Assembly: GCA_028873845.1 (NCBI GenBank)
Contig: JAPPNO010000042.1
Coordinates: 1 to 64,000, forward strand
DNA: 64,000 bases
Origin: Gemmatimonadota bacterium
GTDB taxonomy: Bacteria > Gemmatimonadota > Gemmatimonadetes > Longimicrobiales > Gaopeijiaceae
Direction: 5' to 3'
The notes under the pieces were generated by a model. That model saw only the letters and a program-made list of their open reading frames with translations, made no database searches and had not been told where the DNA came from. Position 1 is the first letter of the stretch. Every line of letters begins with the position of its first letter. The translations under genes and the position numbers were made by a program. Shown piece after piece: positions 35,266 through 60,390 of the stretch.

Positions 35266-38200
35266 GTGTATCACATTCCAAATCACTTCACGAGGAAGAA
35301 TACACGGGACATCGGCGGACGGCAAGAGACGATGAGATCCGGCAATACTCGCGAAACCGATTGTCCAATAACGTGTTATGAACGCACTGGTGTACGCCTC
35401 TGGACTACACGGAACCTTCGATATCTAGTTCCACCGGAACTTGGCAACCTGTCCAACCTGGAATGGCTTGGCCTCGGCGTGAACGAACTTTCCGGGCCGC
35501 TCCCGCCCGAGCTGGGCAAGCTCGTCAAGCTGACAAAGCTGTGGCTCCCGGGGAACCGGCTGACCGGCTCACTCCCACCCGAGCTCGGCAACCTGACCCG
35601 CCTTGAGCGGCTGGTCCTCACCGTAAGCTACGACCGTTCACTTGACCCCCGGGGCCCGCGGGCGTTCCTGTCGGGGCAGCTCCCGCCGGAGTTCGGGCAA
35701 CTGGTCAGCCTTCGGGAGTTGGACCTCTTCGGACACAAGTTGACGGGAGAGGTCCCGCCTGAATTCGGAAAGCTGGTGCAACTGCGAATACTGCACCTCG
35801 CCTGCAATCGGACTACCGGCACCCTTCCGTCCGAACTGAGACAGCTCCGCGATTTGCGCTTCCTGAGTCTGTTCGGCAACCGACTCGACGGGGAGTTTCC
35901 CGAATGGCTCGGTGAGCTCACCAACCTGGAGTATGTCGATATCAGTGGTAACCCTTCCTTGACCGGGAAGATCCCCACGGGCATTGGCGCGTTGACCAAA
36001 CTGGTCAAGCTGTTCCTCTCGGAAAACCGGCTCTCCGGCCCGATCCCGGCAGGAATCGGTCGCTTGGCCAGCCTGGAAAAACTCAATGTGGCAGTGAACC
36101 GACTGTCCGGCCCGCTTCCGTCCCAAATCGGGGACCTGACGAATCTGAGGAGTCTGTCGGTGTTCTGGAACGCCGGCCTCACCGGGCCACTCCCCCGGGA
36201 AATCATGCGGACTCCACTGGAGGAGTTCTATTGGGACGGCACCAGCCTATGCGCCCCGCGGGATCGTGGGTTTCAGACGTGGCTGGCGGGAATTCGATAC
36301 CAATACGGTGCCGGGAAATGCAGAGTGACACCGCGAGAGGTTCTCACTGCGTTTTTCGAGGCCACCGGAGGTTCGAGTTGGACAAGCAATGCGAACTGGC
36401 TCACGGATGCGCCGGTCTCATCCTGGTTCGGGGTGACCGTGGAGGACAGTCTGGTCACTGCACTGGAACTTCCCGGCAATGGACTCTCGGGCACGCTCCC
36501 CTCCGCGGTGCGCGATTTTGGGGATCTCAGGCGTCTCGACCTGGAAGGCAACGCACTGACGGGCGGTCTTCCCAGCGACCTCGGCGACTTGGTTGAACTC
36601 GAGGCACTCGACCTCTCGACCAACCGCTTCTCGGGCCGGCTCCCGCGAGAAATCGGGCGCCTCGAAGCGCTGGAGCGCCTGGACCTGTCCGACAACCAGC
36701 TGGAGGGCGCGCTGCCGGGAGATTTCGTCAGCCTGCAGTCGCTTGGCGACCTCGACTGGAGTGGGAGCGGCGCGTGCGCCCCCGAGGCCGCGTGGTTCCA
36801 GACCTGGCTCGGTTCGGTGGCGACCCGCTCCGGCCCGACGTGTGGCGGGCTCTTTTCGCTGTCGGTTGCGGCCGCCCACCTGTCGCAAGCGGCCCAGAGC
36901 ATCGGTGGCGCGGTACCTCTCATCGCGGGGCGGCCTGCGCTGGTACGGATTCTCGCGACCGCGGACCGGGCGAACGATCTCAGGCCGAATGCCCGGGCCG
37001 GGTTCCTCCTCGATGGCCGCGAAGTCCACATGGCCGAAATGGTGCTCGGTTCCCCCCGTGGCCTGGCCGAGCAGCTTCCAGGGCGGCTGGACCAGTGGTA
37101 TCACGCGGTGATTCCCGCCGAGCTGCTACGTCCCGGGCTCGAGATGGCCGTGCAGGTCGATCCCGACAGCATCGTCCCCAGACACCCGTTGGACGATGTG
37201 CACGTGCCCCTCGACGTGCGCCAGATGCCACCCATGGACCTCACGATCGTGCCCGTTGTGACTGGATCCAGCGGTGACACCGCCGTGCTGAATTGGATCC
37301 GGAGCGCCGACGATTCGCCGGTGCGGTTCATGCGCGCGGTGCTACCGGTGGGCGAACTGGATCTGACCATCCGCGAGCCGCTCACCATCGCTTCCGCGCC
37401 GGAAGCAGCAAGCTTCGACGACTGGCTGGCTCTCCTCGAGGACATCGCATTGCTGCGGGCGACGGAGGACGGAAAGGGGTACTGGTACGGCGTTGTGAAT
37501 CGGGAGGGTGACGCGGGCATTGCCGGGATTGCCTTCGTGGAGGGCCGGGCGGGCGCCGGCATTCCCGACGCCGAGGTGTTCGCGCACGAGCTGGGCCACA
37601 ACATGAGCCTCACCCACGCGCCCTGCGGGTTTCCGAGCGGGGTGGATCCGGACTTCCCCTATCCCGATGGCAATATCGGCGTCCTCGGCTACGACCCCCG
37701 ATCCGGGACAATGGTGGATCCCGCGACACCCGACCTGATGTCCTACTGTCGTCCCCAGTGGATCAGCGACTACAACTTCGCGAAGGCGCTGGAGTACCGG
37801 ATCCGGGAAGAGGCACAGCCTCGTGCCCCGGCGGCCCAGGTCGAACCTGGTGGCAGCCGGCTGCTGCTGTGGGGCCGCGTGACGGCGGACGGCGCGCTTC
37901 ACCTCGACCCCGCGTTCGCGCTCGACGCCCCGGCGCAGCGGCCATCGCGCCCCGGCCCGTACCGCGTCGAGGGCTTCGGAGGGGATGGCAACCGTGCGTT
38001 CGCGCTCGACTTCGACATGGAGACGGTGTCGGAGGGAGGCGGCGGCTTTCTCTTCCTGGTCCCACTCGCCGAGGACCGGATTGCGTCGCTGGAGCGCATC
38101 GTGCTCACCGGGCCGGAGGGCTCCACGGCGCTGGATCGGGAGACACGCGCGTCACCGGTGGCCATCGTGATCGACCGGGAGACCGGGCGGATCCGGTCCA

Positions 38201-38313
38201 TCCTGCGCGGCGATGCGGCTGGGGCGGCTATGTCCGCCGCCGCAGTGGACGTGTCCTCGGAGCGGGAGCGGTTGGTGGTCAGCTATGGATTGCCGCAGGT
38301 GGACCCGTGGTAG
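35266..38313 (+). CDS. LRR + metzincin-type metallopeptidase, lacking its own signal peptide and N-terminal cap (probable C-terminal half of a disrupted gene)
   Basis: Plant-type LRRs (NELSGPLPPELGKLVKLTKLWLPGNRLTGSLPPELGNL) begin abruptly at ~35415; second cap EVLTAFFEATGGSSWTSNANWLTDAP; zinc site AHELGHNMSLTHAPCG; Met-turn DLMSYC. Confidence 0.82.
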   Translation: MYHIPNHFTRKNTRDIGGRQETMRSGNTRETDCPITCYERTGVRLWTTRNLRYLVPPELGNLSNLEWLGLGVNELSGPLPPELGKLVKLTKLWLPGNRLTGSLPPELGNLTRLERLVLTVSYDRSLDPRGPRAFLSGQLPPEFGQLVSLRELDLFGHKLTGEVPPEFGKLVQLRILHLACNRTTGTLPSELRQLRDLRFLSLFGNRLDGEFPEWLGELTNLEYVDISGNPSLTGKIPTGIGALTKLVKLFLSENRLSGPIPAGIGRLASLEKLNVAVNRLSGPLPSQIGDLTNLRSLSVFWNAGLTGPLPREIMRTPLEEFYWDGTSLCAPRDRGFQTWLAGIRYQYGAGKCRVTPREVLTAFFEATGGSSWTSNANWLTDAPVSSWFGVTVEDSLVTALELPGNGLSGTLPSAVRDFGDLRRLDLEGNALTGGLPSDLGDLVELEALDLSTNRFSGRLPREIGRLEALERLDLSDNQLEGALPGDFVSLQSLGDLDWSGSGACAPEAAWFQTWLGSVATRSGPTCGGLFSLSVAAAHLSQAAQSIGGAVPLIAGRPALVRILATADRANDLRPNARAGFLLDGREVHMAEMVLGSPRGLAEQLPGRLDQWYHAVIPAELLRPGLEMAVQVDPDSIVPRHPLDDVHVPLDVRQMPPMDLTIVPVVTGSSGDTAVLNWIRSADDSPVRFMRAVLPVGELDLTIREPLTIASAPEAASFDDWLALLEDIALLRATEDGKGYWYGVVNREGDAGIAGIAFVEGRAGAGIPDAEVFAHELGHNMSLTHAPCGFPSGVDPDFPYPDGNIGVLGYDPRSGTMVDPATPDLMSYCRPQWISDYNFAKALEYRIREEAQPRAPAAQVEPGGSRLLLWGRVTADGALHLDPAFALDAPAQRPSRPGPYRVEGFGGDGNRAFALDFDMETVSEGGGGFLFLVPLAEDRIASLERIVLTGPEGSTALDRETRASPVAIVIDRETGRIRSILRGDAAGAAMSAAAVDVSSERERLVVSYGLPQVDPW

Positions 38314-38414
38314 GCACCGGTGGAGGGAACACCCCATGCGCACCTGATTGGGGCCGCACGGAGAGTCGGATGTCAGCCATGCTTTACAGAATGGAAACTG
38401 GAGTGCACATCACG

Positions 38415-41400
38415 ATGGATCCAGTGACCCGGTCTCGCAGCGTTGCCTTCGCCATGGCGGCGATGTTGTTGGCATGCTGGACCGTCGGATGCGGCGACAC
38501 CGAACCCCCGCCCCCTGCGCCCCGTCCAACGACGGTGACCGTGAGCCCGGCGAGTGTCAGGCTTGCGGCCTTGGAGACTACCGTTCAGCTCGCGGCGGAA
38601 GTGCACGACCAGTACGGGCAAGTGATGACCGGGGCCGCAGTGATCTGGACGAGCGGCGATGCCACGGTGGCGAGTGTGGACGGATCGGGGCTGGTGACGG
38701 CGGTGGGCGAGGGGGTGGCGACGATTGCGGCGACGGCGGGAGATGCCCAGGGAACATCGGAGATCACGGTGAGCGACCCGGACAACCCGGACCGGGCGGT
38801 GCTGGTGGCGCTCTACGAGGCGACGGACGGGCCGAACTGGGTCGACAACGAGAACTGGATGACGGATGCGCCGCTACGAGAGTGGTACGGAGTGGAAACG
38901 GACGGCAGGGGCCGGGTCGTCCGGCTTGAGCTCGCCGGCCGGTGGGATGGGGAAGCGCAAACGTATGTGCCGCACGGCCTCTCGGGACCAGTCCCGCCGG
39001 AACTGGGCAGCCTCGCCAACCTGACGTGGCTGTACCTCCCCGGGAACGAACTCACCGACCCGATCCCGCCGGAACTGGGCAACTTGGGCAATCTGGCGGG
39101 TCTCAACCTGAATGCGAACAGGCTCACCGGGTCGATCCCGCCGGAACTGGACAACCTGGGCAACCTGACGTCGCTCCACCTGGGTGGAAACACTCTTTCC
39201 GGCCCGATTCCGCCGGAACTCGGCACGCTCGCCAACCTGTCGGCACTCAACCTGAATGACAACGAAATCACGGGCCCGATTCCGCCGGAATTGGGCACCC
39301 TCGGCAGCTTGTCGGCACTCAGCCCGAATGACAATGAACTCACGGGCCCGATTCCGCCGGAGCTGGGCGCACTCGCCAACCTGTCGGCTCTCAACTTGAA
39401 TGGGAACGCTCTTGCCGGCCCGATTCCGCCGGAGCTGGGCGCTCTCACCAACCTGTCGGCTCTCAACCTGAGTGACAACGAACTCACGGGCCCGATTCCG
39501 CCGGAAGCGGGCACCCTCGCCAGTCTGTCGGTTCTCGATCTGAATGACAACGAACTCACGGGCCTGATTCCGCCGGAACTGAGCAATCTCGCCAACCTGA
39601 CGTGGCTCAACCTGGCTGGGAATGCTCTTTCCGGCCCGATTCCACCCGAACTGGGCGGCCTTGTCAAGCTGCGGCGGCTCTACCTGGGTGAAAACGCTCT
39701 TTCCGGCCCGATTCCGCCGGAACTCGGCAACCTCGCCAACTTGAGGTGGCTGTACCTCTCCGCCAACCTACTCTCGGGCCCGCTCCCGCACAGCTTCCTG
39801 TTGCTCGACCGGCTGGAGCGTTTCTACGCTTCGGCGAACCGTCTCTGCGTCCCCGGCGTCTCCGCCTTCGCGGCATGGCTCAGGAGTATCCGGTCCCGCG
39901 ATTTCACAGTGTTCACTCCCTGCAACACCGCCGACATTGCCGCGCTCGAGGCACTGTACGATGCCGCGGGCGGCGATGACTGGATCGACTCGGAAGGTTG
40001 GCTGAGCGATCGCGATCTGGAGGAATGGCACGGGATCACGATGGACTCCATCGGCCGCGTGACGGAACTCGACCTGGCGAGCAACGGCCTGGCCGGACAC
40101 CTGCCGCCACTGATCGAGGACCTGGCTCGGATGACCGTCCTGCGCATGGGAGACAACGCACTCACGGGCCGGTTGCCGCTAACGCTGACGCGCCTCGCCC
40201 TCTCAGAGCTCCGCTACGCGGGAACGGACCTGTGCGCCCCGTCCGAAGAGTCATTCCAGGAATGGCTGGACGGCGTTTCGTCGCACGAGGGGACGGGTGT
40301 CGAGTGTGCTCCGCTGTCGGACCGCGATGTCCTTGAGGCGCTATACAACTCGGCCGGCGGCCCGAACTGGGCGCGCAAAGACAACTGGCTGACCGACGCA
40401 CCGCTGGGAGAGTGGGAAGGGGTCACGGTGGACAGCGAAAACCACGTAGTCGGTCTGGATCTCAGGCTTAACGGGCTCAACGACCGGATCCCGCCGGAAC
40501 TCGGCAGCCTCGCCAGCCTGGCGGTTCTGACTCTGTCGGGAAACGATCTCACCGGCCGGATTCCGCGGGAGCTGGGCGACCTCGCCAAGCTGACCGGGCT
40601 GCATCTCGGCTGGAACCAACTCACCGGCCCGATCCCGCCGGAACTGGGCACCCTTGGCAAGCTGACGTGGCTCGAGCTGCCTGGAAACACTCTTTCCGGC
40701 CCGATTCCGCGGGAACTGGGCAGCCTCGTCGAGCTTAGGCGCCTCTACTTGGAGGACAACGAACTCACGGGTCCGATCCCGCCGGAACTAGGTGCCCTCG
40801 CCAACCTGACGTGGCTCGAGCTTTCAAGAAACAGGCTGACGGGCCCCATCCCGCGGGAGCTCGGGAGCTTGCCGGGTCTGGTAGTGCTTGACCTCGGGGG
40901 CAATGCGCTCAAAGGTCCGATTCCCGCCGAACTCGGGAATCTGGCCCGCCTTGGCTGGCTGTTCCTATGGGGCAACACCCTGACCGGCCCGATTCCCGGG
41001 GAACTCGGCAGCCTCGCGCGCGTCACCCGCCTGTCGCTCAGCGACAACGAACTTTCCGGCGTCATTCCGGGAGAACTCGGCGGCCTTGCGCGCCTGACGT
41101 CCCTGGCTCTCGACGGCAACACCCTCTCCGGCCCGCTCCCGCCCCGGCTCGGCGAGCTCGCGAGGCTGGAAGCACTGCTGCTCAACAACAACGAACTGAC
41201 AGGTTGGGTGCCCCCGGAGTTCGGCGGCATGGCGAGCCTGCGGGGGCTGTCCGTCGCCAACAACGCCGCGATGTCGGGAGCGCTCCCCGCGGATCTGACC
41301 ACTCTCACCCGGCTCGATGTCCTCGCGGCCGGCGGCACGGACCTGTGCGCGCCAACGGACGACGACTTCCAGACCTGGCTCGAAGGGATTGCCAAGCGCA

Positions 41401-42899
41401 GGGTCCGTCTCTGCGCCGAAGGACTGCCGGCGGCCTACCTGACGCAGGCGGTCCAGTCGCGTGAGTTTCCCGTTCCGCTGGTGGCAGGCGAGCGGGCGCT
41501 GCTGCGGGTGTTCGTGACGGCTGGAAAGGCCACCCGCGAAGGCATACCGCGGGTTGTGGCCCGCTTCTACCGGGACGGCCGGGAGACGCACGTGGAGGAC
41601 ATCCCGGGCAAGTCCGATCCGATTCCGGCCGAGGTGGACCAGAGCCGGCTCTCGAAGTCGGCGAACGCGGAGATCCCGGCGCATGTGATTCAGCCGGGGC
41701 TCGAGATGGTGGTCGAAGTGGATCCGGACGGCACGCTGGACCCGGATCTCGGGGTCCCGCGGCGGATTCCGGCTTCGGGCCGGCTGGCGGTGGAGGTGCG
41801 CGACATGCCGCCCCTCGACCTGACGGTGATTCCGTTCGTCTGGACCGAGACCCACGACTCATCCATCGTCGACCTCGTCGAGGCCATGGCTGCGGACCCC
41901 GAGAACCATGAGATGCTCGGGGACACCCGCACGCTGCTACCGATCGGCGAACTCGAGGTCACGGCGCACGAACCCGTTCTGAGTTCGACCAACAACGGAA
42001 TCGTGCTGCTCTTCCGTACCGGGGCCATTCGGGCCATGGAGGGTGGGGCCGGACATTACATGGGCATGATGGTACCGCCGGTCAGGGCGGTGGGTGGGGC
42101 TTCCTTCGGCCCTCCCGCCAGATCGAGCTTCTCGCAGCCCTATCCATACATCGTGGCCCACGAACTCGGACACAACATCAGTCTCTATCACGCCCCGTGC
42201 GGTGATCCCGCCGGCCTCGACTCCAACTTCCCCTACAGCGGCGGATCGACCGGGGCCTGGGGCTACGACCTCCGCGACGGCGGGAGCCTGGTACGCCCGT
42301 CCACGGCCGACCTGATGTCGTATTGCCGGCCCTCGTGGATCAGCGACTACCATTTCACCAATGCGCTGCGGTTCCGGTTGAGCGACGCGGACAGCGTGGG
42401 GCTGCCGCGTGTTTCGGGACCGACTCGGTCGCTGATGCTCTGGGGCGGGACGGGTGCCGACAGTGTGCCGTTCCTGGAGCCCGCGTTCGTGGTCGACGCG
42501 CCGCCGGCGCTGCCACAAACCGGGGGACCCTACAGGCTCACCGGAAGCACCGCCGGCGATGCCGAACTCTTCTCTCTTCGCTTCGACATGCGCCAGGTGG
42601 CCGACGGCGACGGAAGTTCAGGCTTCTCCTTCGTGCTCCCCGTGGAGCCCGGATGGGAGGGTGCGCTCACCAGCATCGCGCTGTCCGGTCCCGGTGGATC
42701 GGTCACGCTGGACGGTGACAGCGACCGGTCGATGGCGATCCTGCGCGACCCGCGAACCGGCCGGATTCGGGGTATCCTGAGCGACCTGCCCGCGACGGTG
42801 CTGACCCGTTTGGACGTGGTTGCGGCCTTGTCGGCGGATCGGCGGTTCGATGTGCTGTTCAGCCGGGGGATTCCGGACGCTGAGGCGTGGCGAAGGTGA
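38415..42899 (+). CDS. Big2-LRR-metzincin giant lipoprotein (intact paralog)
   Basis: MDPVTRSRSVAFAMAAMLLACWTVGCGD lipoprotein signal, one Big2, three cap/LRR/C-cap cassettes, zinc site AHELGHNISLYHAPCG, Met-turn DLMSYC. ORF could start earlier. Confidence 0.85.
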   Translation: MDPVTRSRSVAFAMAAMLLACWTVGCGDTEPPPPAPRPTTVTVSPASVRLAALETTVQLAAEVHDQYGQVMTGAAVIWTSGDATVASVDGSGLVTAVGEGVATIAATAGDAQGTSEITVSDPDNPDRAVLVALYEATDGPNWVDNENWMTDAPLREWYGVETDGRGRVVRLELAGRWDGEAQTYVPHGLSGPVPPELGSLANLTWLYLPGNELTDPIPPELGNLGNLAGLNLNANRLTGSIPPELDNLGNLTSLHLGGNTLSGPIPPELGTLANLSALNLNDNEITGPIPPELGTLGSLSALSPNDNELTGPIPPELGALANLSALNLNGNALAGPIPPELGALTNLSALNLSDNELTGPIPPEAGTLASLSVLDLNDNELTGLIPPELSNLANLTWLNLAGNALSGPIPPELGGLVKLRRLYLGENALSGPIPPELGNLANLRWLYLSANLLSGPLPHSFLLLDRLERFYASANRLCVPGVSAFAAWLRSIRSRDFTVFTPCNTADIAALEALYDAAGGDDWIDSEGWLSDRDLEEWHGITMDSIGRVTELDLASNGLAGHLPPLIEDLARMTVLRMGDNALTGRLPLTLTRLALSELRYAGTDLCAPSEESFQEWLDGVSSHEGTGVECAPLSDRDVLEALYNSAGGPNWARKDNWLTDAPLGEWEGVTVDSENHVVGLDLRLNGLNDRIPPELGSLASLAVLTLSGNDLTGRIPRELGDLAKLTGLHLGWNQLTGPIPPELGTLGKLTWLELPGNTLSGPIPRELGSLVELRRLYLEDNELTGPIPPELGALANLTWLELSRNRLTGPIPRELGSLPGLVVLDLGGNALKGPIPAELGNLARLGWLFLWGNTLTGPIPGELGSLARVTRLSLSDNELSGVIPGELGGLARLTSLALDGNTLSGPLPPRLGELARLEALLLNNNELTGWVPPEFGGMASLRGLSVANNAAMSGALPADLTTLTRLDVLAAGGTDLCAPTDDDFQTWLEGIAKRRVRLCAEGLPAAYLTQAVQSREFPVPLVAGERALLRVFVTAGKATREGIPRVVARFYRDGRETHVEDIPGKSDPIPAEVDQSRLSKSANAEIPAHVIQPGLEMVVEVDPDGTLDPDLGVPRRIPASGRLAVEVRDMPPLDLTVIPFVWTETHDSSIVDLVEAMAADPENHEMLGDTRTLLPIGELEVTAHEPVLSSTNNGIVLLFRTGAIRAMEGGAGHYMGMMVPPVRAVGGASFGPPARSSFSQPYPYIVAHELGHNISLYHAPCGDPAGLDSNFPYSGGSTGAWGYDLRDGGSLVRPSTADLMSYCRPSWISDYHFTNALRFRLSDADSVGLPRVSGPTRSLMLWGGTGADSVPFLEPAFVVDAPPALPQTGGPYRLTGSTAGDAELFSLRFDMRQVADGDGSSGFSFVLPVEPGWEGALTSIALSGPGGSVTLDGDSDRSMAILRDPRTGRIRGILSDLPATVLTRLDVVAALSADRRFDVLFSRGIPDAEAWRR
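38960..41300 (+). repeat. tandem ~72-bp coding repeats (24-aa plant-type LRRs)
   Basis: Recurrent NELTGPIPPELGxLxNLxxLxLxx; blocks ~38960-39830 and ~40440-41300 separated by cap sequences. Confidence 0.85.
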
Positions 42900-43752: not shown

Positions 43753-45063
43753 TCAGCTCCTACCCATCTCGGTAACGGGGCCGTCGTCGTCGGTCTCCTT
43801 TGTTTCGCCCCCGCCCTCCTCGCCCTCCGCCTCCGCCTCCCACCCCCGCATCCTCTTCTCCATCACCATCCCGTCGATCGTCTCGATCAACGCCCCCCCG
43901 CGCTTGTCCGTGTGCCGGATCACACCCTCTTCATCGAGTACGAAGATCGTCGGCCATCCGTACACACCCCATTCGGTCGCGATCGGCCCATTGGCGGCCA
44001 CCACTTCGGCGTCGGGCTGGCTGTGACCGTCCCACCAGGTCCGGTAGGCGAGGCGCTCCTCTTTCTTCGCCTCAACGATGGTCTCCAGCTCCGCGTCGCT
44101 GTTGACGCCCAGCAGCGCGACGTCCTCCTCGTCGAAGAGATCCAGCATGGCGCGCTGGTAGGGGTACTCGCCGCGGCAAGGCCCACACCACTGCCCGGAG
44201 AAGATCACCGCGACGATCTTGCCGCGGTATTCCTCCAGCTCGAACTCGACGCCCTCGGTGTCCTTGCCGACGATGTTGGGGGCCACCCGGCCCGGCATCA
44301 GGTACTCGATGTGGAACCGCACCCTGGCCAGGGCCTCGGCGGCTGCCGGGTACGACTCCCCGAGCGCCGCCAGCCCCTCTGCCGCGCGCGCCGTCTGCTC
44401 GTCGCTCATCCGGCCCCGCTGCAGACCCCAGCCGATGCCCGAGACGGAAACCTCGACGCCGCGCTCGAGATCGGCGGTCGATTCGGGGAGGGAAAGGGCG
44501 GCGTCGATCGCCGCGAGCATGCGGTCCACCTGGGCATCCGTGAACGCCTCGCCGGGAGCCGGGTATGTGATCAGTCCGGGCCATGACAGGGCGCGGCCGA
44601 CAAAGTCGGGCATCGTCGGCATGGCGGCGGCGTAGTATTCGAGCATGTTCGTGGTCCGCTCGATCATGCCCCGGGCGTCGGGGTGTTGCTCGGCCAGGGC
44701 TTCCAGATAGGCGCCGATCCGCTCCTGCTGCTCCTCGCCGACCTCGGGGATCGCGATGCGCCGCCTGAAGCTCCAGAGATGGAAGTCGGCCTCGCTTTCG
44801 AAGTCGGCCAGCGTCTCCTCGGCGGTCATCGCCGCCTCGAGGGCCGTCATGAGCTCCTCGAAGCTCTCGTCGGAGAGGGGCTTGCCTCCGTTGTCGTACC
44901 GGGCCGCATCCGGGAACCAGGGGCGCTCCGCGGCTGCGGGGAGATTCAGTTCGGTGGATATGACAGCGTCATCGCCGGTGCTGGCGTCCGTGGTCCCCGC
45001 GACCAGCACGCCCAGCCCGAACGAAACGACCACCGCACCGACTATTGCCAGGGATCTACGCAT
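43753..45063 (-). CDS. TlpA-like thioredoxin family protein, paralog 1
   Basis: 436 aa; signal anchor MRRSLAIVGAVVVSFGLGVLVAG; two helical repeats; APNIVGKDTEGVEFELEEYRGKIVAVIFSGQWCGPCRGEYPYQRAM. Confidence 0.88.
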   Translation of the reverse strand: MRRSLAIVGAVVVSFGLGVLVAGTTDASTGDDAVISTELNLPAAAERPWFPDAARYDNGGKPLSDESFEELMTALEAAMTAEETLADFESEADFHLWSFRRRIAIPEVGEEQQERIGAYLEALAEQHPDARGMIERTTNMLEYYAAAMPTMPDFVGRALSWPGLITYPAPGEAFTDAQVDRMLAAIDAALSLPESTADLERGVEVSVSGIGWGLQRGRMSDEQTARAAEGLAALGESYPAAAEALARVRFHIEYLMPGRVAPNIVGKDTEGVEFELEEYRGKIVAVIFSGQWCGPCRGEYPYQRAMLDLFDEEDVALLGVNSDAELETIVEAKKEERLAYRTWWDGHSQPDAEVVAANGPIATEWGVYGWPTIFVLDEEGVIRHTDKRGGALIETIDGMVMEKRMRGWEAEAEGEEGGGETKETDDDGPVTEMGRS

Positions 45064-46391
45064 TATTCCTGTCCTTTCTCGGCTTCGGCCTCCGCTCCGG
45101 CCTCCGGGTCCGCTTCATCGTCCGTCTCCGCGTCGGCCTCCTCCGACTCCACTTCGGCAGCCTCCTGCTCCGCCTGCCACTCACGCATCCTCTTCCCCAT
45201 CACCAGCTCGTCCACGGCGGCGATCAGCGCGCCTCCGCGCTTGTCCGTATGCCGGATCACGCCCTCCTCGTCGAGGACGTAGATCTGGGGCCAGCCAAGC
45301 ACGTTCCACTGCGTCGCGATCGGTCCCTCGGCGGCCACCTGGTCGGCGTCCGGCTGGCTGTGCCCATCCCACCAGGTGCGGTAGGCGAGACCCTCCCTGT
45401 CCTTGGCCTGCACGATCGTGTCGAGCACGGCGTCGCTGTTGACGCCCAGCAGCGCCACATCCTCTTCCTCGTAGATCTCCAGCATGGCGCGCTGGTACGG
45501 ATACTCGCCGCGGCAGGGTCCGCACCACTGCCCCGAGAAGATCAGGGCGACGATCTTGCCCCGGTAGTCCTCGAGCGCGAACTCGACCCCCCCGGTGTCC
45601 TTCCCGACGATGTTGGGGGCCACCTTGCCCGGCATGAGGTTCTCGATCACAAACCGCTGCTGGTCCAGCTTCTCCACGGCGTCCGGATACTTCTCCGCGA
45701 GTCTGTCCATGAAGGCCGACACGTGCAGCGATTGTTCCTCGCTGAGGGTCCCGCGTTGCAGCTGCCCGCCCAGTTGCCAGAGAGGAACCGACGCTTCGTC
45801 TTCGAAGTTGCCCGAGGCCTCGGGGAGGTTAAGCGTGGCCTCGAGCTGCGCGAGCAGCTGGTCCACCTGGGCGTCCTCGAAGGGTTCACCGTCGGTCGGC
45901 AACCCTTCCGGCGTGGGGAAGATCGTGGCGAAGCCGACGAACGACGGCATGGCCGGCATGGGCGAGGCATAGCCGTCGAGGAGCCTTCTGCGCTGGCTGA
46001 TTGCGCGGCTGTCGGGATGCTCCTCGGCCAGGGCGTCCATGTATGCGTTGATCCGCTCCTTCTGCTCGTCGCCGATTTCGGGGACGGCGAGCCGGCGCAT
46101 GAAGTTCCACAGGTGCAGGTCGGCCTCGCGTTCGAAGTCGGCCAGCGTCTCTTCGGCCGTCATCGCGACCTCGAGTGAGGACATCAACTCCTCGAAGCTC
46201 TCATCGGAGAGGGGTTCGCCTTCGTTGTCGTATTGGGCCGCATCCGGGAACCACATGCGGTCCGCGGCGGCCGGGACGTCGAGTTCGAACCCGTCGGCCT
46301 CGGCGTCAGGGGCTCCGATACCTCCGGCCAGGAGCATTCCCAGTCCGAAGGAAACGATTACGGCGCAGACTACTGCCAGGGGCTGCTTCAT
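45063..46391 (-). CDS. TlpA-like thioredoxin family protein, paralog 2
   Basis: 442 aa; MKQPLAVVCAVIVSFGLGMLLAG; FSGQWCGPCRGEYPYQRAMLEIYEEEDVALLGVNSD. Overlaps its neighbour by 1 bp. Confidence 0.88.
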   Translation of the reverse strand: MKQPLAVVCAVIVSFGLGMLLAGGIGAPDAEADGFELDVPAAADRMWFPDAAQYDNEGEPLSDESFEELMSSLEVAMTAEETLADFEREADLHLWNFMRRLAVPEIGDEQKERINAYMDALAEEHPDSRAISQRRRLLDGYASPMPAMPSFVGFATIFPTPEGLPTDGEPFEDAQVDQLLAQLEATLNLPEASGNFEDEASVPLWQLGGQLQRGTLSEEQSLHVSAFMDRLAEKYPDAVEKLDQQRFVIENLMPGKVAPNIVGKDTGGVEFALEDYRGKIVALIFSGQWCGPCRGEYPYQRAMLEIYEEEDVALLGVNSDAVLDTIVQAKDREGLAYRTWWDGHSQPDADQVAAEGPIATQWNVLGWPQIYVLDEEGVIRHTDKRGGALIAAVDELVMGKRMREWQAEQEAAEVESEEADAETDDEADPEAGAEAEAEKGQE

Positions 46392-47731
46392 GGGACCTGT
46401 CCTTTTTCTGCTTCGCTTGCGGGATCGCCCGCGTTTTCGGCTTCGGTTTCGGCGTCCGCGTCGTCAGTGGCCTCTGCCTCGGCCTCTTCGGCCTCCCGCT
46501 CCGCGTCCCACGCGCGCATCCTCTTGTCCATCAACAGCCTGTCCACGGCGGCGATAAGCTCGCCCCCGCGCTTGTTCACATGCCGGATCACGCCCTCCTC
46601 GTCGATGACGTAGATCGTGGGCCAGCCGCTGACGTTCCACTCGGTTGCGATCGGCCCTTCGGTGGCTGCCACCTCGGCGTCGGGCTGGCTGTGGCCGTCC
46701 CACCAGGTGCGGAAGTCCAGGCGTTCCTCCTTCTTCGCCTCGATGGCCGTCTCCAGCAAGGCGTCGCTGTTGACGCCCAGGAGCGCCACGTCCTCATCCT
46801 CGAAGAGGTCCAGCATGGCGCGCTGGTACGGGTACTCCCCACGACAGGGGCCGCACCACTGCCCGGAGAAGATCAGCGCGACAATCTTGCCACGGTAATC
46901 ATCGAGCTCGAACTCGACGCCCTCGGTGTCCGTGCCCACGATGTTCGGCGCGACGTTGCCCGGAATCAGATTCTCGACAAGGAAACGCTGGCGGTCGATG
47001 AACTCCGCGGCGTCGGGGTTCTCCTCCTTGAGTCCCTCCAGATAGGCGACGATCCGCGCGGTCTGTTCCTCGCTGACCTGGCCCAGCTGCAGCCGGTTGC
47101 CGAAGCGCCAGAAGAGGGTGCCGGCTTCGCCCTCGATGTCGCCGGCCACCTCGGGCAGGCTGAGCGCGCCCTCGAGCGTGCCGAGCATCCGGTCCACCTG
47201 GGCGTCCTCGAAGGGCTCGCCTTCGTTGTCGTATTCGTCGGCCATGCCGAAGAACATGACGCTGAGTGTGGCGGGCGGGGCGCTGGGCATCGAAGCGGCG
47301 TAGGAGTCGAGCAACTGCCCGCGCCGCTCGATGACCGTGCGATGGTCGGGATGCTGCTCGGCCAGCTTCTCCAGGTACTCCGTGGCCCGCGCCTTCTGCT
47401 CTTCGGTGACCTCGGGGACCGCGAGGCGGCGGACGAAGCTCCAGAGCTGCGCGTCCGCCTCGGTCTCGAAGTCCGCCAGGGTCTCGTCGGCGTTGAGCGC
47501 CGCATCGAGGTGCGAGAGGAGCTCGTCGAACTGCTCGTCGGAGAGTGGCTCGCCCCCGGTGTCGTAGTCGGCGATGGGGGGGAACCACATTTGCTGGAGC
47601 GCGATGGGGACGTGGGCGAGAGGTGGTGGCGATGCTTCGTCCGCGTCGGGGGCGCCGCGGCTGCCGGCCAAGAGCATTCCCAAGCCGAATGAAACGACTA
47701 CTGCGCACACTACTGCCAGGGGCTGCCGCAT
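46388..47731 (-). CDS. TlpA-like thioredoxin family protein, paralog 3
   Basis: 447 aa; MRQPLAVVCAVVVSFGLGMLLAG; FSGQWCGPCRGEYPYQRAMLDLFEDEDVALLGVNSD. 4-bp overlap with paralog 2. Confidence 0.88.
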   Translation of the reverse strand: MRQPLAVVCAVVVSFGLGMLLAGSRGAPDADEASPPPLAHVPIALQQMWFPPIADYDTGGEPLSDEQFDELLSHLDAALNADETLADFETEADAQLWSFVRRLAVPEVTEEQKARATEYLEKLAEQHPDHRTVIERRGQLLDSYAASMPSAPPATLSVMFFGMADEYDNEGEPFEDAQVDRMLGTLEGALSLPEVAGDIEGEAGTLFWRFGNRLQLGQVSEEQTARIVAYLEGLKEENPDAAEFIDRQRFLVENLIPGNVAPNIVGTDTEGVEFELDDYRGKIVALIFSGQWCGPCRGEYPYQRAMLDLFEDEDVALLGVNSDALLETAIEAKKEERLDFRTWWDGHSQPDAEVAATEGPIATEWNVSGWPTIYVIDEEGVIRHVNKRGGELIAAVDRLLMDKRMRAWDAEREAEEAEAEATDDADAETEAENAGDPASEAEKGQVP

Positions 47732-48278: not shown

Positions 48279-48845
48279 TCAGCTGTTTCCAGCCTCCGAT
48301 CCGTCCTCGGTCTCCAAACCGCCGCCCGCATCGTCCATCCCCGTCTCCTCCCCCACCTCTTCCGCCGGAGCCGCCGGCGTCATGCCCACCGGCCCGGAGG
48401 CCTCATAGTCCCGCATCAGCTTCTCCATTCACAATCTCAAGAGCGGCGATGGACTTCCCCCCGCGCTTGCCCAGTACCGGATCACGCCCTCTTCATCGAG
48501 GATGTAGATCTGCGGCTATCCCGTCATTTCCAGCCGGTTTCGATCGGCCCCTCGGCGGCCGCCGCATCGGTAGGGGCGCACCACTGCCCGAAGAAGATGA
48601 GGATGACGATCTTGCCCCGGCAGTCCTTCGAGCGCAAACTCGACGCCCTCGGTGTCGGTACGCACGATGTTCGGCGCAACGTTGCCCGAGGTCAGACGTT
48701 CGACCAAGAAGCGGTGCCTGTCGAGGAAACCTCTCGGCGTCGCCATGCTGCTCGCTGAGATCCTCCAGAAATCCACGATTCGCGCGCTCTGCTCATCGCT
48801 GATCTGTCCCGACTGGGTCGGTGCCCAGTGGGCCTGCCGCCTCGT
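48279..48845 (-). pseudogene. decayed TlpA-like paralog (closest in this window to the copy at 51304-52638)
   Basis: Fragments in several frames: ISDEQSARIVDF, FLDRHRFLVERLTSGNVAPNIVRTDTEGVEFALE, LLRAVVRPYR, LMRDYEASGPVGMTPAAPAEE; 3' end shares gggtcagctgtttcc with the 51304 gene. Confidence 0.8.
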
Positions 48846-48846
48846 T

Positions 48847-48879
48847 CGAAAAAGGGTGACACGATGTCACCCTTTTTCG
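48847..48879. repeat. perfect inverted repeat (15-bp arms, 3-nt loop)
   Basis: CGAAAAAGGGTGACA-CGA-TGTCACCCTTTTTCG read directly. Confidence 0.95.
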
Positions 48880-49088
48880 TCGCCGCAGGCCTATGAGCCG
48901 GCGTCCACCGGGACAAAAGGGGATGGCGGAAGAAAACTCCAATTTGGCCATTTCCACTTCTTCTGTTTCCATGAATGCCAACCTCGCATTCGTGACTATA
49001 TTCGGCTAGAGAATGGGTGTATGAAATGAAAGGCGCGACCGCACGTCGTTACGACGGCTTCTGGGGCACTTCGACGGACACGAGGGCG

Positions 49089-49421
49089 TCATTCATGGCT
49101 TGGTCCCGCAGATTGCTGTTCGTTGATCCGCCCAGTCTGGAGCTGGCCCCTGAACCTCCCGAAGGCAGGATCGGTCTGGTACTCAATGTCGGCGGGCACA
49201 TCGGGCACACGCAGGATGGTATCGAGCGTGGCGAGCATCCCGACGACCTGCCCGTCGTCGAATGGCTTGCCGTCGTTGGCGGATCGAAAGGCCGTCTGGA
49301 CGATCCAGCCGGGCATCGTGGTCCGCTTCGCCATGGCCCCCTTCAGCAACGTACCGCCCCCCCTGCTGGTTCGCGCACCCACTTCTCGGTGTGGACCGGC
49401 CATCCCGTTTGTTTCCAACAA
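49089..49421 (-). pseudogene. second TlpA-like N-terminal-module fragment
   Basis: SANDGKPFDDGQVVGMLATLDTILRVPDVPADIEYQTDPAFGRFRGQLQTGRINEQQS aligns with the second helical repeat of the family. Confidence 0.7.
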
Positions 49422-51303: not shown

Positions 51304-52638
51304 TCAGCTGTTTCCGTCCTCGGCCTCGGGCTCGGCGCTCCCATCGTCCGTTTCCGTCTCAGCCCCCTCCGCCGGCGCCGCAGGCGTCATCCCCACCGGC
51401 CCGGACGCTTCATAGTCCCGCATCAGCTTCTCCATCCACAGCTCGTCCAGCGCCGCGATGAACTCGCCCCCGCGCTTGCCCACGTACCGAATCACACCCT
51501 CCTCGTCGAGGATGTAGATCTCCGGCCATCCCGTCACGTTCCAGCGGGTCGCGATCGGCCCCTCTGCGGCCACCACGTCGGCGTCCGGCTGGCTGTGGCC
51601 GTCCCACCAGGTGCGGTACGGCAGCCGCTCGTCGATCTTGGCCTGCTGGATGGTCTCGAGCTTGGCGTCGCTGTTGATGCCCAGCAGCACGATCGGGCGG
51701 TCCTGGTAGTTCTCCAGCACGAAGCGGTGATAGGGGTATTCGCCCCGGCACGGCCCGCACCACTGCCCCGAGAAGATCAGGGCCACGATGTTGCCCCGGT
51801 ACTCCTCGAGCTCGAACGCGACGCCGTCGGTGTCCGTTCCGACGATGTTGGGCGCGACGTTGCCCGGAACGAGGTTCCGCACGACGAAGATCTTGTCGTC
51901 GATCATCTCGGCGGCTTCGGGGTGCTTCTCCTTGAGACCTTCGTAGTAGCCCGCGACTCGCTCGACCTGCTCCGGCGACAGGCGTCCCTGCTGCAGGCGG
52001 CCGTTGAAGCGCCAGAAGTGGAGACGGGCTTCTTCCTCGAAGCTCGCCAGCGTCTCGGGGATGGTCAGGGCGGCGTCCAGCCGGGCCATCATTTCGTCGA
52101 GCATGGCGTCCTCGAAGGGGCCGCCGTCCGGGTTGAATTCGTCCCCCATCCCGAAGAGCATCAGCGAACCGGACAGGGAAGGGGGCGGACGGTCATTGGG
52201 CTCCGAGTAGCTGTCGACAAGCGTTGCCCTGCCGTTGATGATGCCCGCGTGATCGGGGTGCGCCTCGGCGAGATCGGTGAGGTACGCCTTGACCCGCTCC
52301 TTCTGTTCGTCGCTGATCTCGGAGGGCGAGAGGCGGCGGATGAAGTTCATGAGGTGGACTTCGGCCTCGCGTTTGAAATCGGCCAGGGTCGCGTCGGCGG
52401 TCATGGCCTCGTCGACCGCGGTCATCAGCGCTTCGAACTTCTCGTCGTCGAGCGTTCCCCCCTCGGTCGCGTAGTCGGCGATCGGTGGGAACCAATCCTC
52501 CTGGGCCGCGATCGGCAGCTGCCATTCGGATTCGGCGGGGGCCGCGGCACGGGCACCGGGAAGGATGAACTCGGACGCGACCACGCCGAGGATGAACGAC
52601 GCGACCGCGACCATCAGGACTGCCTGGGGCTTCTTCAT
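51304..52638 (-). CDS. TlpA-like thioredoxin family protein, paralog 4
   Basis: 444 aa; MKKPQAVLMVAVASFILGVVASEF; FSGQWCGPCRGEYPYHRFVLENYQDRPIVLLGINSD. Confidence 0.88.
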   Translation of the reverse strand: MKKPQAVLMVAVASFILGVVASEFILPGARAAAPAESEWQLPIAAQEDWFPPIADYATEGGTLDDEKFEALMTAVDEAMTADATLADFKREAEVHLMNFIRRLSPSEISDEQKERVKAYLTDLAEAHPDHAGIINGRATLVDSYSEPNDRPPPSLSGSLMLFGMGDEFNPDGGPFEDAMLDEMMARLDAALTIPETLASFEEEARLHFWRFNGRLQQGRLSPEQVERVAGYYEGLKEKHPEAAEMIDDKIFVVRNLVPGNVAPNIVGTDTDGVAFELEEYRGNIVALIFSGQWCGPCRGEYPYHRFVLENYQDRPIVLLGINSDAKLETIQQAKIDERLPYRTWWDGHSQPDADVVAAEGPIATRWNVTGWPEIYILDEEGVIRYVGKRGGEFIAALDELWMEKLMRDYEASGPVGMTPAAPAEGAETETDDGSAEPEAEDGNS

Positions 52639-52843: not shown

Positions 52844-54187
52844 CTACAGCGCCCCCTTCAGGAACTCCAGGAACTCCTCGCGATCCCGCGTCAGCCCCAG
52901 AAACGTCGCGATCGTCTCACCCTCGCCGTCCAGCACCGCGTAGAGCGGCAGCGCGATGGTGCCGAACTTCTCCTTCTGGTAGTCCATCTGATCTTCGTAG
53001 ACCTCGCCCTCCCCGTCGGTGAAGAGTCGGGCCAGGACGAAACGCTCAAGCTGCTCCGCGACTTCGGGGATGGTGAACATGTTCGACTCCATCCAGCGGC
53101 AGTTCGTGCAGGTGTAGCCGGTGAAGTCGATGAAGACGCGGTTGCCGCTCTCGCGGGCTGCGGCGAGGGCCCCGTCGAGATCGTTCTGATACCAGTGGAA
53201 GCCGTCGTGTTCCTCGCCCCGTTCGGCCATGGCGAGCGCGCCTGCCGGGGTGTCCTCGAAGCGCGGGGGCAGGAAGGACTCGATCTCGCCGAGCGGACGT
53301 CCGTCGAGGCCGAGGGTGAGCCAGATGCCCAAGGCGACAAAGCCGCCCGCGAAGCCGAGGCGGACGGGCTTGGGCCGGGCCGCCGGTCCGCTCCCGGCGA
53401 CCGCCGCCACGGCGGACCGCGCGCTCAGCAGGATGTAGGCCGCGATCACGACGCACAGCACCGCCCACGACACGAGCACCACCTGGCGGGTGAAGATCCC
53501 CCACCCCAGCACCAGGTCCGCGTTCGAGACGAACTTGAGCGCGGCGCCCAGCTCCACGAGTCCCAGCACCACCTTGACCGACTTGAGCCAGCCCCCGGAG
53601 CTCGGCATGCGCTTCAGCATGCGCGGCGCGAGGGCCAGGAAGAAGAAGGGGACGGCAAAGGTTGTCGAGAAGACGAGCAGCCCAACCACCGGCTGCTGCC
53701 ACTGACCCTGCGACGCCAGCACGAGCAGCGTGCCCACGAACGGGGCCGTACAGGTGAAGGTGGTGACCGCGAAAGTCCCCCCCATCAGCACCGCGCCCAC
53801 GCCCCCCCCGCCGGAGCCCCGCTCACGGCTGACCCGGTCGAGGCGGGTGAGCAACCCGGACGGGATCCGGATCTCGTACAGGCCGAAGAAGTTCAGCGCG
53901 AAGGCCACGAACATGGCCGCGATCGCCATGTTGGTCCACGGACTGGCCGCGAAGCGGGCCATCCCCGCGGCACCGACCAGAATCGAGGTCGCGAGCCCCA
54001 CGGCCGTGAATGTCCCGATAATCCCCCCGCCGAAGAGCAGCGCGTTCTTGACCGCGGCCTGGCGGCTCTCACCCCCGTGCTTCGCGAAGTACGAGGCCGT
54101 GATGGGGATCATGGGGAAGACGCACGGCGTGATGAGCGCGAAGGCCCCGGCCGAGATGGCCAGCCAGAAGAAGGCGCCGTCGATCAT
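52844..54187 (-). CDS. DsbD/CcdA-type transmembrane thiol-disulfide reductase with C-terminal thioredoxin domain
   Basis: 447 aa; ITPCVFPMIPITASYFAKHGG, FTCTAPFVGTLLVLAS TM cysteines; C-terminal FTGYTCTNCRWMESNMF. Confidence 0.92.
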   Translation of the reverse strand: MIDGAFFWLAISAGAFALITPCVFPMIPITASYFAKHGGESRQAAVKNALLFGGGIIGTFTAVGLATSILVGAAGMARFAASPWTNMAIAAMFVAFALNFFGLYEIRIPSGLLTRLDRVSRERGSGGGGVGAVLMGGTFAVTTFTCTAPFVGTLLVLASQGQWQQPVVGLLVFSTTFAVPFFFLALAPRMLKRMPSSGGWLKSVKVVLGLVELGAALKFVSNADLVLGWGIFTRQVVLVSWAVLCVVIAAYILLSARSAVAAVAGSGPAARPKPVRLGFAGGFVALGIWLTLGLDGRPLGEIESFLPPRFEDTPAGALAMAERGEEHDGFHWYQNDLDGALAAARESGNRVFIDFTGYTCTNCRWMESNMFTIPEVAEQLERFVLARLFTDGEGEVYEDQMDYQKEKFGTIALPLYAVLDGEGETIATFLGLTRDREEFLEFLKGAL

Positions 54188-54193
54188 GTGGTT

Positions 54194-54703
54194 CTAGCCC
54201 TTCTTTTTCGGGATGATCTTGACCGGCACCGCGATCTTCTCCGTCTGCGCGGGGAGGCAGACGCGGTTGGTGCACGCCTGGTAGCGGGCGCGAACCTCCA
54301 TCTCGGTGACGTCGGAGCCGGCCTCGACCGACACCTGCACCGGCACCGTGTACGAGACCTTGCCCTCGTGCATCTCCACCTGCATCTGGAAGTTCTGGTC
54401 GAACTTCACCTTGGGCTTCGTGCCCTCGACCTTGCCGGCCACGGTGAAGGGCTGGTCCGAACTCAGCGAGATCTTGCTGGGCACGGGGCCGCCCTCGCCC
54501 TGCGTGATCGAGTAGATGTACCAGCCCGCGTCGATCGTCGCCTTGACGGATACGGTGATTTTCGCACCCGGCGTGAGGCTCTCCTCTTCGATCTCCGCCG
54601 TCCAGTGGACCGGATCCTGGGCCTGGGCGCTGCCCGTCACGAGCGCCGCCGAAACCGCCAGCGCCGGGAACAGCGTCACCAGCGATTTGCTTTTCGATAT
54701 CAT
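54194..54703 (-). CDS. DsbD-alpha (N-terminal DsbD periplasmic domain)-like protein
   Basis: 169 aa; signal; DPVHWTAEIEEESLTPGAKITVSVKATIDAGWYIYS, YQACTNRVCLPAQTEKI. Confidence 0.85.
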   Translation of the reverse strand: MISKSKSLVTLFPALAVSAALVTGSAQAQDPVHWTAEIEEESLTPGAKITVSVKATIDAGWYIYSITQGEGGPVPSKISLSSDQPFTVAGKVEGTKPKVKFDQNFQMQVEMHEGKVSYTVPVQVSVEAGSDVTEMEVRARYQACTNRVCLPAQTEKIAVPVKIIPKKKG

Positions 54704-54770: not shown

Positions 54771-56171
54771 TCATTCGATCCCGAACTTCTTCAGCTCCTC
54801 GCGGAAGATCGGGATCGAGACCCCGTACTTCGAGAAGGCGCTCGCGATCCTGCCCTCCGGATCGATGATGTAGTGCTTGCCGTCGTAGGCGTTGTAGTTC
54901 TCGTAGACTTCGGGCATCGACAGGTAGCCGTAGCCGTTCTCGTCGAGGACGCCGCTCGGGTCGCTCACGATGGGATGCGTGATCCCGTTGTATTCGACGA
55001 GGCGCCGCACGGTCTCCATTTCGTCGTAGGTCACCGTGAGGACCGTCAGTCCCTTGTCGTTCAGCTCGCGGTGGAGCTGCTCGACGTGGGGCATCTCCAC
55101 CCGGCAGCCCGCGCACGAATACCCCCAGAAAACCATCAGCACGGCCTTGTTCTCGGCTGCCAGTTCGGAGAGGGTGACCGTGCCGCCGAGCGACGATTCC
55201 AGGGTGAAGTCGGGGGCCGGGGTCCCGATGGGCAGGTCGGCGTACTTGCCGCTCGAGAGCCCGTGGTCGGGATCGACCGTCCGGCACTCGGCGCCCTCCG
55301 GCGCGTTGAAGGCGAAGTCGGCCGGGTCGGCCTTACCGCCCTCGCGGATTTCGGTGACGAGGTGTTCGGTGTTTGCCGTCGTCCACACGCTGCCGCCCTC
55401 GCCCTCTGTGGTGGTCACGATCCTGCGCGTGAACCCGTCCTCGCCGACGTAGAGACGGCTCTTGTAGAGCGGATCGTCGTCGGGGTAGTTGTAGGCGATC
55501 TTGTAGTGCCAGTCGATCACGTCCACCGGAACCCCGCCGACCTCGTCCTTCCCGACGTAGTCCACCGAGCGCAGCCCCGGGTCCTGCAGGCGCCACTTCG
55601 TGGACCAGTGCCCGGGCACCGCCGAGCGGATCAGCCACGGCCCGAAGTCGAAGAAGCTCCAGTGGATGGTGTTGAAGCTGTCGACCTCGCGCATCCTTTC
55701 CGGGGGCCCCATCTCGGCGGTGGTGCAGTACGGGGCGGGCGCACCCTCGGTGCTCCTGATGCTCCACTTCGTCGTGCCGTCGGAGGCCAGGACGTGGGTG
55801 CTCTTCGACTCCCTGCGCATGAGGGTGGGGTCGTCCGGACCGGTCGGCCCTTCGTACGCGTAGCGGCTCTCGGCGGTGATGTGGAATAGGTTGGGGCGCG
55901 CCAGGCGGAGCACGGTCGCTTCGGCCTGCTCGGAGGACCCCGAGGACCCGTTCATCTCGTAGACCGCGTGGAGGGACTTGCTGTTGGCGAAGGCTTCGTC
56001 GCTGGCTTCGAGGACGGCGACTGCCCTGGAATCGATGCGGGGATCGCCGGGTTCGCCGGTGCCGGTGATGGTGGCGGTCCCGCCGTAGCGGAGGCCCAGA
56101 ACGACGGCCAGAGCGCCCAAAGCCACGATGAGGAACGCACTTCGGGTGGTTCTGCGCGCCAGGTCGGACAT
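54771..56171 (-). CDS. redoxin/TlpA-like protein with N-terminal lipoprotein-carrier-like (DUF2092-type) domain
   Basis: IGTPAPDFTLESSLGGTVTLSELAAENKAVLMVFWGYSCAGCRVEMPHVEQLHREL; upstream beta-rich segment SLHAVYEMNGSSGSSEQAEATVLRLARPNLFHITAE. Confidence 0.85.
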   Translation of the reverse strand: MSDLARRTTRSAFLIVALGALAVVLGLRYGGTATITGTGEPGDPRIDSRAVAVLEASDEAFANSKSLHAVYEMNGSSGSSEQAEATVLRLARPNLFHITAESRYAYEGPTGPDDPTLMRRESKSTHVLASDGTTKWSIRSTEGAPAPYCTTAEMGPPERMREVDSFNTIHWSFFDFGPWLIRSAVPGHWSTKWRLQDPGLRSVDYVGKDEVGGVPVDVIDWHYKIAYNYPDDDPLYKSRLYVGEDGFTRRIVTTTEGEGGSVWTTANTEHLVTEIREGGKADPADFAFNAPEGAECRTVDPDHGLSSGKYADLPIGTPAPDFTLESSLGGTVTLSELAAENKAVLMVFWGYSCAGCRVEMPHVEQLHRELNDKGLTVLTVTYDEMETVRRLVEYNGITHPIVSDPSGVLDENGYGYLSMPEVYENYNAYDGKHYIIDPEGRIASAFSKYGVSIPIFREELKKFGIE

Positions 56172-56253
56172 CGGTGTGCTCCTGTGTGGGCTCCGGGGCA
56201 TTCCACCTACAGATTAGCCGATGGGGCGGATGTGGGGCAAGTTGAGAGCACTC

Positions 56254-59120: not shown

Positions 59121-59342
59121 CGTTGGTTCTCGGGGCTCCTCGTGGGCTTCGGGTTGGGGAGGTTCAACATGCCGCGGATCCGCGTTCGGTGAAACCTCGT
59201 CGGGGGATGGGGGCAACCTTTCGACGTGGGTTGGGGGTGCGATAGGTTGCCGTGGCGAGGCTCGCGGGAAGTCTGCTGCATTCGTCTGGCGATGCTTCCG
59301 GGCTTGAACGCTGGACTCGGAGGATCACGATGTCAAGTCGAA

Positions 59343-59403: not shown

Positions 59404-59934
59404 ATGCCAAGACTGCTCGCACTCGGCCTCGCCGCCTCGCTACTGTCGGTTGCGTGGTTGCTCAGCCCGCCTGGTGACAACCCCGCCGCCATCCACATCT
59501 CCGCCGCCGACATCCTCGCCACGATCGAGAACGCGCCCGCCAACCGCGTTAGCGACCAGCAGATCCGGCACATCGACGCGGGGGGGCACAATGTGGGCGT
59601 GGGTGTCGTGCGGCGCCCGCCAACCACTTCACTCGGCGCGATCCAGCACCACAACCAGACCGAGGTCTACTACGTGGTGGCGGGGCGGGGGACGATGGTG
59701 ACGGGTGGGGAACTCACGAACGGGCGTGAACTGAACCCGGACGGCGTGGTGGTGCGCACGCTCACGGGGCCGAGTGCGGTGGGCGGGATCGAGGGGGGCG
59801 AGAGCCGGGAGGTGGGGCCGGGTGACATGGTGATCGTCCCGGCGGGGTCGCCGCACGGGTTCAGCGAGATCACCGAGACGATCACCTATATCGTGATGCG
59901 GGTGGATCCGGAGCAGCTGGTGGAGTTGAAGTAG
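59404..59934 (+). CDS. secreted cupin-domain protein
   Basis: 176 aa; signal; LGAIQHHNQTEVYYVVAGRGTMVTGGEL...REVGPGDMVIVPAGSPHGFSEITETITYIVMRV. Confidence 0.88.
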   Translation: MPRLLALGLAASLLSVAWLLSPPGDNPAAIHISAADILATIENAPANRVSDQQIRHIDAGGHNVGVGVVRRPPTTSLGAIQHHNQTEVYYVVAGRGTMVTGGELTNGRELNPDGVVVRTLTGPSAVGGIEGGESREVGPGDMVIVPAGSPHGFSEITETITYIVMRVDPEQLVELK

Positions 59935-60225: not shown

Positions 60226-60390
60226 CGCGGGTTACGAAGATTGTCGTTGACAATCGGCGCCCATCCTCCCATTATATACGAGAACCTTCGTGGATCAGGC
60301 AGGAAACCGCCGGTGATGGCCAGCGGAAGAAGTCACGAGGGTTGCCCCACGATGGGACAACCCGGGAATCTGCTCGAAAGGAGATTGAGG

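Follow-up and report, generated by a model that had tools for sequence, protein, structure and literature searches.

Does a helical arm, duplicated in tandem and lying between a membrane anchor and a thioredoxin domain, set client choice in a family of bacterial reductases? The question is raised by the window analyzed here, a stretch of 64,000 nucleotides of Gemmatimonadota DNA, whose minus strand carries six intact paralog genes for proteins of about 425 to 447 residues. In each protein, a hydrophobic N-terminal segment is followed by some 220 residues of helical structure and then, at the C terminus, by a thioredoxin-like domain bearing the motif WCGPCRGEYPY or a near variant. To our knowledge, extracytoplasmic reductases usually lack a distinct part for client binding, and it is poorly understood how one DsbD donor can serve many paralogs without mix-ups. 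Many paralogs, a bounded module, and a donor inherited together with them make up a defined system in which the role of the added arm can be asked about.

Paralog 3 (P0003, 46388-47731) carries the N-terminal anchor, two repeats, and the thioredoxin-like domain (WCGPCRGEYPY) in that order, and its gene is arrayed with those of paralogs 1 (P0001, 43753-45063) and 2 (P0002, 45063-46391), the latter overlapping its neighbors by 1 and 4 bases, as would be expected under translational coupling in an operon. Paralog 4 (P0004, 51304-52638) lies immediately downstream of two DsbD genes, and paralogs 5 (P0005, 61357-62631, starting at the GTG that precedes KKTLAIVGG) and 6 (P0006, 62666-63958, starting at the ATG that precedes PKSPAAAA) stand near the end of the window. 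Just past that end is a seventh copy (L009:2079-2891, contig C133), which starts like a lipoprotein and has a single helical unit ahead of the same thioredoxin domain. A decayed repeat-thioredoxin copy on the same strand (48306-49292), left as fragments at 49107-49292, 48615-48818, and 48306-48536 in broken frames, indicates that genes are born and lost inside the cluster. The 3.5-kb gap that holds it shrinks to about 0.6 kb in a near relative (G013, locus L067).

The initial annotation had described a helical module of about 85 residues, duplicated in the N terminus of every TlpA paralog. In paralog 3, the two segments lie where it placed them, repeat 1 at 47300-47557 and repeat 2, which adjoins the thioredoxin domain, at 46967-47224. 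Their likeness, originally drawn by eye, holds in profile alignment of the six paralogs (hhalign probability 99.6, E 4.8e-24), and in each of the six proteins none of 2000 shuffles reaches the Smith-Waterman score between the two repeats (87-165, versus shuffle maxima of 50-64); the internal symmetry is thus strongly detected. The length was underestimated, since the lead-in (WFPP..Y in one unit, FFGMADEY in the other) aligns as well. With this lead-in and 27 relatives, 98 of 104 columns are matched (E 4.4e-30; reversed control, E 0.31), and predicted secondary structure recurs at exactly 111 residues: 94% of its states are identical at that shift, versus 55-81% at others. The unit, therefore, is about 104-111 residues long. 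The pair is present in all six intact copies of the window, at 44632-44889 and 44299-44556 in paralog 1, 45978-46223 and 45636-45893 in paralog 2, 52207-52464 and 51871-52128 in paralog 4, 62206-62463 and 61876-62130 in paralog 5, and 63530-63787 and 63197-63451 in paralog 6. It does not extend to every paralog, as the next gene has a single unit, a form also found in about 16 relatives elsewhere.

That the module belongs to no recognized domain is borne out by our searches, in which the helical region had no family in Pfam, NCBIfam, or the PDB sequences, no PHROGs family worth naming, and no strong Pfam match. The best score of a Pfam tetratricopeptide repeat (TPR) model on one repeat was that of TPR_14 (E 0.0027, 18.7 bits versus a gathering score of 23.5), and no repeat unit reached the gathering score of any Pfam TPR model. 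Scattered matches at E of about 0.001 to 1 to the unrelated DUF4404, DUF6176, TssG, and HrpA were judged to be chance. AlphaFold2 models the whole protein (35 aligned relatives; mean pLDDT 93, pTM 0.88) and the arm alone (27 sequences; pLDDT 91.9, pTM 0.85) with confidence, and the arm appears in them as two equivalent units of four main helices each, in agreement with the helical character first proposed. When the whole protein was compared by Foldseek, only ResA, related reductases, and other thioredoxin folds were found, and the arm alone gave nothing significant against the PDB (best E 0.23); its insignificant matches, none with E < 0.2, include TPR, armadillo, HEAT, and 14-3-3 proteins. 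The TPR_14 match is one of several weak leads that point toward TPR-like helical hairpins. None of 139 distinct repeat sequences contains a cysteine. The arm is an uncatalogued domain with a confident model and could be registered as a family.

The catalytic domain, in contrast to this uncatalogued addition, belongs to a thioredoxin system of a known kind. It matches PF00578 (AhpC-TSA) and PF08534 (Redoxin) above their gathering cutoffs, and its best fold matches are ResA structures (Foldseek E 5e-10; TM-score over the target, 0.83-0.87). The active-site motif is CGPC in 80 of 85 sequences, and 82 of 85 have a ResA-type glutamate three residues past the second cysteine (CxxCxxE), which we take to be the position of the active-site Glu80 of Bacillus subtilis ResA. 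Glu80 matters for the reductase function of ResA. The name TlpA paralogs, used at first for these proteins, holds in the sense of TlpA/ResA-like, but none of them meets the NCBIfam cutoff for TlpA or ResA. The ResA model is missed by far (41-55 bits versus 170), and the TlpA model, which stands for TlpA proper of the Rhizobiales, gives at most 27.4 bits versus 230. The catalytic domain places the proteins broadly with ResA/TlpA-like reductases but outside the NCBI definitions of ResA and TlpA. Architecture was counted by sequence prediction in about 75 distinct genes: two-unit proteins have a hydrophobic N-terminal anchor without a lipobox (58 of 59), and most single-unit proteins have a lipobox (11 of 16).

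The two same-strand genes immediately upstream of paralog 4 encode a split DsbD. One of them (52844-54187) holds the membrane domain fused to a C-terminal thioredoxin domain of its own (Pfam DsbD_TM, E 7e-29; Thioredoxin_7, E 1e-11), and the other (54194-54703) encodes the N-terminal periplasmic domain as a separate gene (DsbD_N, E 2e-14). The membrane gene adjoins the cluster in the other ten repeat-positive genomes as well, and the DsbD_N partner is likewise present wherever the contig is long enough to show it. In a search of the genus targeted at this split DsbD, the genomes that had it were precisely the 11 with repeats; the 12 others, which may hold more distant DsbD homologues, gave no match. 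On an RpoB tree of 21 of the 23 genomes of the genus, presence and absence of repeats and DsbD require at least four changes; the pairing has therefore held through several gains or losses. Since the genes are adjacent and may move as one segment, this pattern is weaker as independent proof of interaction, and it supports the view that the repeats and the split DsbD are one functional unit. Beside the DsbD genes, an AhpC/TSA-type thiol oxidoreductase without the repeat (54771-56201, minus strand) is often kept; its large N-terminal domain has no Pfam family match.

Mapping the repeat profile across genomes, we found it in 11 of 23 members of the window's own genus, usually as several paralogs per positive genome and up to about 10. 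In a sample of 395 Gemmatimonadota from 138 genera, strong matches came from this genus only, and weak partial matches came from three other genomes, G216, G304, and G321 (E 2e-4 to 9e-4); that in G216 (L092) was dismissed, as the protein has no thioredoxin domain. Among 299 Pseudomonadota, the repeat occurs in one genome only (OY282460, titled Pseudomonadales; locus L057), as a single two-unit gene in a proteobacterial neighborhood of ubiE/ubiB-like genes and a TonB receptor. It is absent from 95 order mates of this genome, and the copy is likely a transfer between phyla. The same gene adjoins a thioredoxin-ankyrin lipoprotein. Plasmids, phages, and viral contigs gave no repeat match. Several source genomes are sponge metagenome-assembled genomes, and for those without jk18x names we presume a sponge origin from their names and general knowledge. 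The repeat-carrying genus appears to be largely sponge-associated, and the jk18x names among its source genomes occur in a study of the Ircinia sponge microbiome (PMC9531527).

When 62 repeats were placed in an unrooted tree, every repeat-1 sequence fell into a single clade with support of 100, and single units lay among the repeat-2 sequences. The alignment is short (86 columns), and we therefore rely only on the strongly supported repeat-1 split. The first unit goes back to one duplication that preceded the multiplication of the genes, and the thioredoxin-proximal unit, from which it would have been copied, is probably the older form. The single-unit relatives are mostly lipoproteins and keep the simpler form. 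Two fusion frames (L069:9137-11824 and L068:3554-6517) encode a two-unit arm with its thioredoxin domain, followed by one more unit and another thioredoxin domain. Among the window paralogs, identity falls from 67% in the thioredoxin domain to 51% in repeat 1 and 43% in repeat 2. The genes are under purifying selection: dN/dS stays well below 1 wherever defined, the thioredoxin domain usually has the lowest value, and this analysis of the paralogs gave no sign of positive selection. Motif positions in the arm are conserved across about 70 genes, and for each paralog an orthologue can be clearly recognized in other genomes, with 91-98% identity in the nearest of them. By these sequence comparisons, the paralogs are old, kept, and most different from one another in the arm.

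How might such proteins work? We propose, with about even confidence, that they are membrane-anchored reductases fed by a dedicated DsbD, with the helical arm selecting their clients. The paralogs would be periplasmic thiol-disulfide reductases of the ResA/TlpA type. Electrons would pass from cytoplasmic thioredoxin to the DsbD membrane part, then to its thioredoxin domain and to DsbD_N, which, as the last carrier, would reduce the CGPC sites of the paralogs; this path is proposed because established DsbD/CcdA pathways work in this way (PMC3884852, PMC3914529). The reduced paralogs could in turn reduce disulfides or other oxidized cysteines of periplasmic client proteins, each held or positioned by the cysteine-free arm between anchor and thioredoxin domain, and the paralogs would differ mainly in the client served. 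The redox part of this explanation is well supported. The sequences show the duplication, the gene content, the active site, the anchor, and the co-inheritance with DsbD, and client selection by the arm is what we infer, together with the direction of electron flow and the different clients of the paralogs. That the arm is folded, conserved, and cysteine-free and differs from paralog to paralog is explained best if it holds the client. Its lack of cysteine suits its place next to a thiol exchanger, and its faster divergence than that of the catalytic domain and the exclusive partnership with one DsbD also fit client recognition, although the faster change is ambiguous because an unconstrained spacer or a scaffold would show the same. 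No gene of the cluster stands out as a client. A wider version of this proposal, which we regard as rather doubtful, is that an undescribed helical recognition module makes a ResA-like reductase into a client-specific periplasmic repertoire for which a single dedicated split DsbD supplies the electrons. In this version, the repertoire would have expanded as a unit within one genus, largely associated with sponges, and would have crossed between phyla on at least one occasion.

Two studied systems come close to the proposed reductases. ResA of Bacillus shares with them the thioredoxin fold, the membrane anchor, the CxxC motif, a Glu80-type residue, and a nearby gene for a DsbD/CcdA-type donor, but it has no helical arm, its NCBIfam cutoff lies far above their scores, and the present family usually has several paralogs per positive genome and is absent from half the genus. 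The CcdA-Etrx-MsrAB2 system of the pneumococcus is a parallel already studied (PMC3914529). There, the thioredoxin-type surface reductases Etrx1 and Etrx2 adjoin the CcdA/DsbD-type donors CcdA1 and CcdA2 and are paralogs with differing specificity; in contrast to the arm proposed here, their specificity lies in the thioredoxin surface, without an N-terminal repeat, and their operon has a methionine sulfoxide reductase, whereas none is seen in the present cluster. Placing an extra periplasmic domain ahead of the thioredoxin domain recalls a third group. In Bacteroidetes TlpA proteins, the thioredoxin domain is preceded by an N-terminal DUF4369. However, the present proteins have no DUF4369 match, and their arm is all helical.

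Some of the same evidence could be read differently. CcdA-ResA acts in cytochrome c maturation (PMC3884852), and a ResA-like active site with a DsbD/CcdA partner has the hallmarks of apocytochrome reduction; the genes could be nothing more than CcmG/ResA reductases for cytochrome c maturation that have multiplied in this genus. But the paralogs and this DsbD are both missing from 12 of the 23 genomes in the genus, and thioredoxin-like genes also exist elsewhere in the genome of the window, which makes it unlikely that the cluster as a whole does housekeeping work; we consider this reading improbable. Still less probable is that the arm is a mere spacer of weakly constrained sequence that keeps the thioredoxin domain off the membrane. 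Its position between anchor and catalytic domain and its faster evolution would suit a spacer, but the confident fold (pLDDT 92), the conserved motif positions, the low dN/dS, the complete lack of cysteine, and the retention of one unit in lipoprotein forms argue against it. The arm could also be an oligomerization or scaffold module that assembles several thioredoxin domains into a complex at the membrane, much as in DsbC, DsbG, and ScsC, which have an N-terminal dimer or trimer module ahead of the thioredoxin fold. Many co-located paralogs could form mixed oligomers, and the fusions already place two thioredoxin domains in one chain. We nevertheless think it unlikely, as no coiled coil or known oligomerization domain was matched, and repeat 2, the most divergent part between paralogs, is not what would be expected of a shared interface.

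A further alternative concerns the origin of the arm and is compatible with client recognition, so the likelihoods assigned here do not sum to one. It holds that the arm is a much-diverged TPR-like domain of the kind found in planctomycete TlpA-like (seleno)proteins, duplicated here, and that the proteins work like those; we treat this as a real though minority possibility. The planctomycete proteins (WUGPCRAMYPHERSLV) are the nearest thioredoxin-domain relatives found outside the family and have a helical N-terminal domain, whose last hairpin aligns in register with that of the arm (p 0.001-0.002). The TPR_14 match on one repeat points the same way, as does a planctomycete TPR-type protein that the repeat profile matches with a per-genome E of 5e-6, or about 1.5e-3 over the 294 searched; apart from this protein and a low-complexity-like match, these 294 genomes gave no repeat. 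Against such an origin, hhalign of the arm to the planctomycete N-terminal domain gives a probability of only 1-21% and covers one hairpin, so that beyond this last hairpin the domain is not detectably the present arm. Likeness to TPRs is likewise limited to helical hairpins and to weak matches of the second hairpin, whereas the present unit has four helices and 111 residues versus two helices and 34 residues in a TPR, stays under every Pfam TPR cutoff, and finds no significant TPR-like solenoid in the PDB.

The planctomycete relatives differ from the present reductases in having methionine in place of the glutamate and, in most of them, a selenocysteine-type TGA at the first active-site position. 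At their loci (L108-L135), 20 of the 25 motifs counted read UGPC, and since the in-frame TGA falls on the first active-site cysteine, these relatives are probably selenoproteins. A 'UGC-containing TlpA disulfide reductase family protein' is named in a recent review (PMC13188914) and could be this group or a different one. Their thioredoxin matches reach E 1e-56 per genome and start at profile positions 36-96, far better than those in the one other Gemmatimonadota family searched (E 1e-20 at best). Within this comparison of planctomycetes and one family, the difference hints that the gene was acquired from elsewhere.

Several other genes accompany the cluster. An Rfam scan of 43000-64000 gave no match, and a scan for promoters and terminators gave no more than chance level. 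A Met-zincin with DUF5118, DUF5117, and DUF4953 (56610-59216) and a divergent cupin gene (59404-59931) are conserved together in most positive genomes, where they separate the cluster into its two halves. The short protein at 60316-61155 has one match to a TonB receptor plug and no barrel, and two plug-like stretches can be seen in it by eye. The gene at 37974-42896 encodes a very long protein of leucine-rich repeats that also has a Big_2 domain and, weakly, matches Peptidase_M66. It is a eukaryote-like repeat protein, and such proteins are reported to be enriched in sponge symbionts (PMC8163846).
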